A model generated the notes under the pieces. The model did not search any database. It was given only the letters and a program-made list of their open reading frames with translations, and was not told the origin of the DNA. The position numbers and the translations under genes were made by a program. A stretch of 46,543 bases of DNA from an uncultured Acinetobacter sp. Lineage in GTDB: Bacteria > Pseudomonadota > Gammaproteobacteria > Pseudomonadales > Moraxellaceae. This document shows positions 5,163-10,359 of the stretch, piece after piece; position 1 is the stretch's first letter; every line of letters starts with the position of its first letter. The DNA lies in assembly GCA_947627655.1 (NCBI GenBank), contig CANQWW010000003.1:1-46543 (forward strand). Reading direction: 5' to 3'.

Positions 5163-5239
5163 TGGTGGCTATGACGAGACTTGAACTTGTGACCCCCGCA
5201 TTATGAGTGCGGTGCTCTAACCAACTGAGCTACATAGCC
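5163..5239 (-). tRNA. tRNA-Met (elongator, anticodon CAT)
   Basis: Reverse complement GGCTATGTAGCTCAGTTGGTTAGAGCACCGCACTCATAATGCGGGGGTCACAAGTTCAAGTCTCGTCATAGCCACCA folds as a cloverleaf with encoded CCA. Confidence 0.95.
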
Positions 5240-8504: not shown

Positions 8505-9059
8505 ATGCATCAAAGTGTAAAAACCATTTTCCGCCTCTGCTTCGCCGTGGTGATTTTCCTGATTACCTTGTCACTGTGCTTGACCTGCTTCGCCAAACTT
8601 CAGGACATCATGCAGGCTGAACAGAGCTTTCAGCAAGGTCAATCCCTGCGTCTCAACAGCAGTCCAAACCAGCAGTATATTTTGGTATCGAATAATCAAA
8701 AGCCTGATCAGGCGATTTTTGTCTTGATTGCTGGAAATGGTTATATTGCCAAAAGTAGCTGTGAGCATTATCCCAACCTGTGTCTCGATGAGGACAATCA
8801 GTCACATAGCCGTCAGATTATGCAAATACAGTTGTTTAAGGCAGGCCAGTTTTCCTATATTGAGCAAGTCAGCTATCGAGACAGTCGTAGTGGTCAGTTT
8901 GCAGAATTTACTTATGACAAAAATCAGATTCAGCAGTTTTATCAGCAGGATATTACTAGCTTGAAATATATTGTATTTGCCATTGCCCTGTTTGCTCTGT
9001 CTGCATTATTGGTAAGTTTCAAGCTGATAAAAAATTTCCGTCAGTTCTTAAACAAGTAA
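8505..9059 (+). CDS. hypothetical membrane-anchored protein
   Basis: 184-aa ORF with N- and C-terminal hydrophobic segments. Confidence 0.7.
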   Translation: MHQSVKTIFRLCFAVVIFLITLSLCLTCFAKLQDIMQAEQSFQQGQSLRLNSSPNQQYILVSNNQKPDQAIFVLIAGNGYIAKSSCEHYPNLCLDEDNQSHSRQIMQIQLFKAGQFSYIEQVSYRDSRSGQFAEFTYDKNQIQQFYQQDITSLKYIVFAIALFALSALLVSFKLIKNFRQFLNK

Positions 9060-9086
9060 CAAGCAAATAGACACGCCATACCCAAA

Positions 9087-9404
9087 AAAGGAGCCTCGGC
9101 TCACTGCTGCCCACAATTTTAACTAGGTTTGTATGAAGCAATAAAAAACAAGATACCAACTTAAATATATGAAGTTTATTAATCTTTATAATTAAGTACT
9201 ATATAGCCTCATCTTTTCTTTAAAAGTTTAAATGGGTTTGTGTAGGCAGAACCCTACTTTGGAAAGACCCAAAGTAGGCAAAAGTCTCTTATTACCCATA
9301 CACGACATCCTGTCGTGATGGGTAATGTGTGGCATCCCTGCCACACGCGCGTAGCTTAAACCGAATCACTTCAACTCTGGGGCAGCAGTGACTTCGGCTC
9401 CTTT
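9087..9404. repeat. MITE-like intergenic element with imperfect terminal inverted repeats and three internal hairpins
   Basis: Left AAAGGAGCCTCGGCTCACTGCTGCCC (9087-9112) versus right GGGCAGCAGTGACTTCGGCTCCTTT (9380-9404); internal palindromes at 9253-9278, 9291-9326 and 9327-9346. Confidence 0.65.
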
Positions 9405-9450
9405 GCGATTCCTTAACTTATCCCTATATAGACTTCATACCTTAGAGGTA

Positions 9451-10359
9451 TTAAATAGGTCGATTGAAAGTGTCACAATCAGCCATCTGACCAGATTTCA
9501 GGCCTGTATTAAACCACTGTACACGCTGTGCGCTGGTACCATGGGTAAAACTATCCGGTACTACACGACCTTGGGCTTTTTTCTGTAAATAGTCATCGCC
9601 AATTTTATGTGCTGCGTCCATGGCTTCCTGTACGTCACCTTGTTCCAGGAACTGGGTCCGCTCATGATTATGGTAGGCCCACACACCGGCCAGGCAATCT
9701 GCCTGCAATTCCTGACGTACCGATAACTGATTGCCCTGCACTTCACTGGCCTGTTGACGGGCTTGCTGCACCTGAGAAGAAATCCCCAGCAGGGTTTGAA
9801 TATGATGACCCACCTCATGCGCGACCACATAGGCCTGAGCAAAGTCGCCTGCCTGATCATGACGTGACAGTTCAGTACTGTTCTGCTCGCCCGTAATCCC
9901 CATCTGGGTACGCATATCTTTAAAGAAGGCAGTATCAATATAAACCTTCTGATCTGCTGGACAATAAAATGGCCCCATGGCTGATTGTGCTGTACCACAG
10001 CCTGAATCCACTACACCACTGAAGAGGACCAGCGTAGGTGCTGTGTAGGGCTGGTTAAGCTGGCTTTGAAAGACTTGTGACCAGGTGTCTTCGGTGTCGG
10101 CTAATACTGTGCCCACAAATTCCATGGCTTCTTGCTGCTCTGGTGTCGGATTATCCAGACCACGTGTTTCAGCAGCACCTGACATGCCGGAAGTGACCTG
10201 TTTGGTGGTCTGATAAGTCTGTTGTGGATCAAGTCCCAAAAACTTCCAGCCCACAAAAGCAACGATCAGTCCAACAATACTGATCCCGCCAACTTTCGCC
10301 CCAGCACCGCCACGGCGGTCTTCCACATTGCTACTCACACGACGACCTTTCCAGCGCAT
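9451..10359 (-). CDS. ypfJ: neutral zinc metallopeptidase, YpfJ family
   Basis: 302-aa ORF; MRWKGRRVSSNVEDRRG N-terminus and HEVGHHIQTLLG zinc motif. Confidence 0.92.
   Translation of the reverse strand: MRWKGRRVSSNVEDRRGGAGAKVGGISIVGLIVAFVGWKFLGLDPQQTYQTTKQVTSGMSGAAETRGLDNPTPEQQEAMEFVGTVLADTEDTWSQVFQSQLNQPYTAPTLVLFSGVVDSGCGTAQSAMGPFYCPADQKVYIDTAFFKDMRTQMGITGEQNSTELSRHDQAGDFAQAYVVAHEVGHHIQTLLGISSQVQQARQQASEVQGNQLSVRQELQADCLAGVWAYHNHERTQFLEQGDVQEAMDAAHKIGDDYLQKKAQGRVVPDSFTHGTSAQRVQWFNTGLKSGQMADCDTFNRPI

Follow-up and report, generated by a model that had tools for sequence, protein, structure and literature searches.

The window, the whole 46,543-nucleotide stretch of DNA from an uncultured Acinetobacter sp. 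that we analysed, contains a short element between two convergent genes. One of them (8505-9059) encodes a small membrane protein that had no match in a Pfam search, and the other (9451-10359) is ypfJ (PF04228). A first-pass annotation had described an element of roughly 318 bp at 9087-9404, with imperfect ends of about 25 nt, and had suggested that it is either a non-autonomous mobile element (MITE) or a structured RNA array. The element exists, and both ends lie where the annotation had placed them. However, the borders were drawn too widely: the outer AAAGGAGCC of each proposed terminal inverted repeat (TIR) varies from copy to copy, and represents the two arms of a local host terminator. 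Based on aligned copies and a paired-end scan, the mobile unit is a 289-bp sequence, CACTGCTGCCC...GGGGCAGCAGTG (Table 1).

Table 1. Features of the element and its insertion site (positions in the window; TSD, target-site duplication)
Feature	Position	Strand	Basis
Left arm of split host intrinsic terminator, AAAAAAGGAGCC	9084-9095		Outside element, overlaps TSD; pairs with opposite flank; rejoined site folds
TSD, left copy, GCCTCGGCT	9093-9101		7/9 match to right copy
Element proper (MITE, 289 bp)	9102-9390	+	About 40 genomic copies; borders of aligned copies; paired-end scan
Left TIR, CACTGCTG-CCCACAATTTT	9102-9120	+	Matches one ISAbe18 end
Conserved structured core (cargo module)	9203-9358	+	Covariance model R1; both-side changes at 12/38 pairs; genus-wide
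Core hairpin, CCTACTTTGG-AAAGAC-CCAAAGTAGG	9253-9278	+	Sequence; folding; covariation
Core hairpin with one bulged A, ATTACCCAT A CACGACA ... TGTCGTG ATGGGTAAT	9291-9326	+	Sequence; folding; covariation
Core hairpin, GTGTGGCA-TCCC-TGCCACAC	9327-9346	+	Sequence; folding; covariation
Right TIR, minus-strand reading CACTGCTGCCCCAGAGTTG	9372-9390	-	Matches other ISAbe18 end
TSD, right copy, ACTTCGGCT	9391-9399		Paired-end scan
Right arm of split host terminator, GGCTCCTTT	9396-9404		Outside element, overlaps TSD; intact orthologous terminators (L162, L165, L166)

A dispersed MITE with an autonomous partner

The annotation had proposed a search for further copies, and rather than a single copy without sharp ends, we found approximately 40 matches to the element in the 2.62-Mb draft genome from which it comes. 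Many of these are at contig ends, as expected for a repeat that breaks assemblies. When 24 copies were aligned with their flanks, conservation started at CACTGCTGTCCCA and stopped at TGGGACAGCAGTG, with a sharp boundary at CACTG/CAGTG, and the flank outside differed in each copy. As the annotation had noted, there is no credible ORF in the element.

Some contig ends start with the same TIR and then continue into a different sequence. This sequence is the 1,269-bp insertion sequence (IS) ISAbe18, which is present in the same genome as the MITE. The IS4 family is characterized by a DDE transposase and duplications of 9-13 bp; ISAbe18 encodes a transposase with the Pfam domains DDE_Tnp_1 and DUF4372, its record is annotated as IS4-like ISAbe18, and its duplications measure 9-10 bp. 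At both of its ends, the MITE matches ISAbe18 (CACTGCTGTCCCATAGTT; CA[C/T]TGCTGTCCCACAATTTT), its left end corresponding to one end of the IS (..CCCACAATTTT) and its right end to the other (..CCCATAGTT). Copies of the ISAbe18 type have the same 9-10-bp duplications as the MITE, and many of them are located in terminators. Published work documents ISAbe18 as active in Acinetobacter sp. Tol 5 (PMC8552602) and reports a 9-bp duplication for it in A. bereziniae (PMC6863613).

ISAbe18 and the MITE thus resemble each other in their terminal sequences, their duplications and their preference for terminator loops. They differ in that ISAbe18 has a transposase and, close to one end, a hairpin that resembles a terminator, whereas the MITE has a structured core instead. 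The hairpin is a palindrome, AACAAGAGGAAGCTCAAATGAGCTTCCTCTTGT, near the 3′ end of the transposase gene (L118/L119). Given this location, ISAbe18 may itself supply a new terminator where it disrupts the original one. Judging from the matching ends, ISAbe18 is the likely source of transposase for the MITE, on which it would act in trans.

The data therefore support a non-autonomous, IS-derived element, and the MITE interpretation of the annotation stands: the 289-bp sequence has TIRs but no transposase ORF, occurs in dispersed copies with unrelated flanks, is bordered by TSDs, is missing from orthologous sites and shares its ends with an autonomous IS. The alternative of a structured RNA array is also partly correct, because the module at the centre of the MITE is structured and conserved, and shows compensatory base changes.

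Three other origins were considered. A single-copy structured RNA is ruled out by the roughly 40 genomic copies with sharp, shared ends. We rejected a plasmid origin of the whole element, as plasmid matches span mainly the core and include no full-length copy. Phage matches are at chance level, and viral contigs contain no exact match to a core pattern, so we also rejected a phage origin.

Preference for the loops of intrinsic terminators

The annotation had reported no clear TSD, but one is present. It has decayed to 7 matches in 9 positions, and it was hidden from view because it coincides with the loop and inner stem of the host terminator. When the site is rejoined without the element, it forms a hairpin (-13.2 kcal/mol) accompanied by A/T tracts. 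In most other copies, too, the left and right flanks each supply half of a hairpin, as a rule with A/T runs next to it (e.g., AAAAAGCAGCTCGAAAGC-element-GCTCGAAAGCTGCTTTTTTTT), and the duplicated 9-10 nt correspond to the loop and inner stem of this hairpin.

We analysed 41 distinct sites, consisting of 31 MITE and 10 IS insertions, after leaving out three spurious end pairs. Exact TSDs of at least 9 bp occur in 21 of the 41 sites, compared to a mean of 0.6 for shuffled pairs of left and right flanks. If up to 2 mismatches are allowed, the number rises to 37 (shuffled mean 1.4). To evaluate terminators, we rejoined the flanks, removed one duplication and applied a strict hairpin scorer that handles mismatches; for controls, we used 1,722 positions in these flanks at a distance of 30-110 nt from the insertion point. 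A terminator-like hairpin is centred on the insertion point in 26/41 sites (63%), but at only 6/1,722 offset positions (0.35%).

The remaining 15 sites fail the strict test. Some are mutated terminators, while others (L077, L089, L102 and L118) resemble ordinary sequence rather than terminators. Targeting of terminator loops is therefore a strong preference, but not a rule. Nor is the specificity of ISAbe18 for terminators absolute, as selection in Tol 5 yielded an insertion close to a promoter (PMC8552602). Our search of the open-access literature found no report of a preference of IS4 elements for terminator loops, although this is not proof of novelty.

The ypfJ terminator also provides the empty sites that the annotation had recommended looking for. 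The orthologous terminator is intact and unoccupied in three relatives (L162, L165 and L166). In a fourth (L163), a full-length ISAbe18 lies in its loop, and in a fifth (L161), the same site contains a related MITE whose ends resemble those of ISAbe18 and whose core is reversed.

It could be argued that this pattern reflects survivorship, in that insertions elsewhere were lost through their harm to genes, and the elements are indeed nearly always intergenic and adjoin at least one gene 3′ end. We regard this explanation as highly improbable. The control positions are in the same flanks as the insertions, only 30-110 nt away, yet differ from them greatly in hairpin frequency, and ISAbe18 and the MITE have independently entered the same orthologous loop.

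A conserved structured core

The three internal hairpins described in the annotation are present, and the region is strongly structured. The predicted folding energy of 9080-9410 is -119.9 kcal/mol, compared to a mean of -70.9 for shuffled sequences (z = -10.4), and none of 100 shuffles reached it. Folding exceeds that of shuffles on both strands (z of -10.4 and -7.1). The hairpins belong to a unit of approximately 156 nt with four helices (9203-9358), which is better conserved than the rest of the element. We built a covariance model, R1, from 19 diverse copies of this core. In an alignment made from the sequences and not fitted to the structure, both partners have changed in 12 of 38 base pairs, a number reached by 0/500 shuffles and lost when the structure is slid along the alignment.

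At E ≤0.001, the model has hits in 116 of the 299 family genomes searched: 111 of these are Acinetobacter, and the other five, from other genera, match weakly. At least 15 Acinetobacter genomes have no match, and a sample of 273 other genomes from the class gave none. The weak matches, in other genera of Moraxellaceae (G176, G188, G192, G198 and G202; E-values 1e-5 to 5e-4), may either reflect distantly related modules or arise by chance. In eight Acinetobacter genomes, the core occurs in 56, 42, 31, 17, 12, 10, 4 and 1 copies, where the 56 in the genome of the window include fragments at contig ends.

No Rfam family, including C4 antisense RNA, matches the core above its gathering threshold, and we therefore rejected a known Rfam family as its identity. 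The only Rfam match in the entire window is a tRNA at 5166-5239. Group 1 C4-like sRNAs of A. baumannii are also multicopy structured RNAs (PMC5320573), but the core does not match the Rfam C4 model.

Several copies within the genome (L016, L018-L020 and L024-L028) have swapped variants of their hairpins. One variant is an extra palindrome, AACTCAAAATATATTTTGAGTT, that ends the first hairpin; the other is a longer arm, GAGCCAGTTTTAAGCACTGCTTTAAAACGCAGCGC, of the second hairpin, which is also found in other genomes (L059 and L202).

On the minus strand, 9291-9346 forms two hairpins with a GGA loop (CA-N-GGAUG; ACAAGGAUGU in some relatives). These loops resemble the binding consensus of CsrA/RsmA, and an rsmX model matched only below its threshold. 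We nonetheless set aside the idea of a CsrA sponge, given that the motif varies in one of the loops and that the orientation of the core relative to genes is unbiased.

Several vehicles for the core

The core is not limited to MITEs with ISAbe18 ends. In four genomes (G130, G013, G082 and G086), it occurs within elements that have unrelated ends, TAGATAACTTGCATAA...TTATGAAAGAAGTCTA. These ends match an IS of 917-918 bp, and a plasmid sequence resembling the end of this type of IS is annotated as an IS5/IS1182 family transposase. IS5-type ends are also found on elements without the core. Some core copies without ISAbe18 ends adjoin the 3′ ends of genes. In genome G097, copies L122, L184 and L209 have a third type of long flank that starts and ends near CTATAGC; these candidate termini possibly define another vehicle.

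Given that the same core occurs in elements with unrelated ends, it behaves like a passenger of several vehicles. Moreover, its structure is genus-wide, and it occurs both without these ends and in an IS5-type MITE, which suggests that it travels as a passenger and is not a decayed remnant of a transposase.

Two other explanations of the core were weighed. The first is that it is primarily an RNA selected by the host, such as an sRNA or a 3′-UTR stability element, for which the MITE is merely a vehicle. The covarying, genus-wide structure is consistent with this idea, as are the copies at gene 3′ ends that lack ISAbe18 ends. Furthermore, in an old orthologous insertion by a hemerythrin-like gene in genomes of the A. 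lwoffii group, the core appears by eye to have changed less than the arms. However, a consensus scan found neither a promoter nor a terminator inside the element in the window, core-only copies have no clear orientation bias relative to genes (17 ++, 12 -- and 23 convergent), the copy number ranges from 1 to 56 with none in some genomes, and Rfam offers no match. We consider primary host selection rather doubtful. According to crude ORF calls, core copies have the 3′ end of a gene on at least one side and are almost never between divergent genes, a placement that fits a REP-like or 3′-UTR hairpin better than a dedicated sRNA gene.

The second explanation is that the core is itself mobile, or a REP-like hairpin element, and inserts into existing MITEs. 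This would account for its presence in two different vehicles, for MITEs with IS5-type ends that lack it and for its reversal between the ISAbe18-like ends in L161. IS110-family ISs are reported to insert in REPs, and such an IS is repeatedly found in one core hairpin. On the other hand, we found neither a duplication nor a precise junction for the core alone, and identified no dedicated recombinase, so that autonomous mobility of the core seems quite unlikely.

The IS110-family insertions are in genome G097 (L202-L208), where at least five copies of the core contain an IS with a 329-aa DEDD transposase, inserted in the same hairpin each time. They split the core into two partial matches approximately 1.2-1.3 kb apart.

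Proposed mechanism

Very probably, the 289-bp MITE is moved in trans by the ISAbe18 transposase into terminator loops, and carries the structured core as a passenger. In this model, the IS4-family DDE enzyme would recognize the CACTGCTGTCCCA-type ends of the MITE and integrate it via a staggered cut of 9-10 bp. Its preferred target would be the centre of palindromic DNA flanked by A/T tracts, as found in the loops of intrinsic terminators, and DNA symmetry or A-tracts may provide the targeting cue. Insertion would split the terminator and duplicate its loop, leaving the terminator arms just outside the TIRs. If the arms and TIRs pair across the element, the terminator might remain functional. 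The interior holds the hairpin module of about 156 nt.

More speculatively, unrelated transposon families may have taken up a structured module that is found throughout Acinetobacter and spread it to gene 3′ ends, where it would act on transcripts or DNA. The vehicles would be MITEs of the ISAbe18/IS4 and IS5 types, and perhaps a third type. We regard this reading as less likely than not.

Relation to known elements and significance

It is well established that MITEs can derive from coresident ISs. The 111-114-bp Acinetobacter element MITEAba12 has ISAba12 ends and AT-rich targets without a sequence trend (PMC6382973). Like the element in the window, it is IS-derived, non-autonomous and flanked by 9-bp TSDs, and it is mobilized by a coresident IS. 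By contrast, the present element is 270-350 bp in size, has ISAbe18 ends, targets terminator loops and contains structured cargo. A 439-bp MITE flanks class 1 integrons in the same genus (PMC3934969); it probably differs from the present element, for which plasmid searches gave matches to the core only and no full-length copy.

Like REP/BIME-type repeats, the core is intergenic, hairpin-rich and multicopy, adjoins the 3′ ends of genes and receives insertions of an IS110-family IS. Unlike these repeats, it is a four-helix module inside IS4- and IS5-type MITEs. In the open-access literature, we found no report of REP-like repeats in Acinetobacter or of a shared structured cargo, which again does not prove novelty. 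Compared to known MITEs, the present element is unusual in its terminator-loop preference and its shared structured cargo.

These results make a statistically strong case that an IS4-family transposase and its MITE prefer the loops of intrinsic terminators, and they make the basis of this targeting testable, whether it is DNA symmetry, A-tracts or extruded hairpins. They also explain dozens of intergenic repeats in the genome, where many terminators have been interrupted. The core represents an uncharacterized structured family, absent from Rfam, widespread in the genus and carried by two transposon vehicles, that transcriptome and annotation work in Acinetobacter will have to account for. If unrelated transposon families have indeed taken up the module, a structured element would persist by hijacking several transposases.
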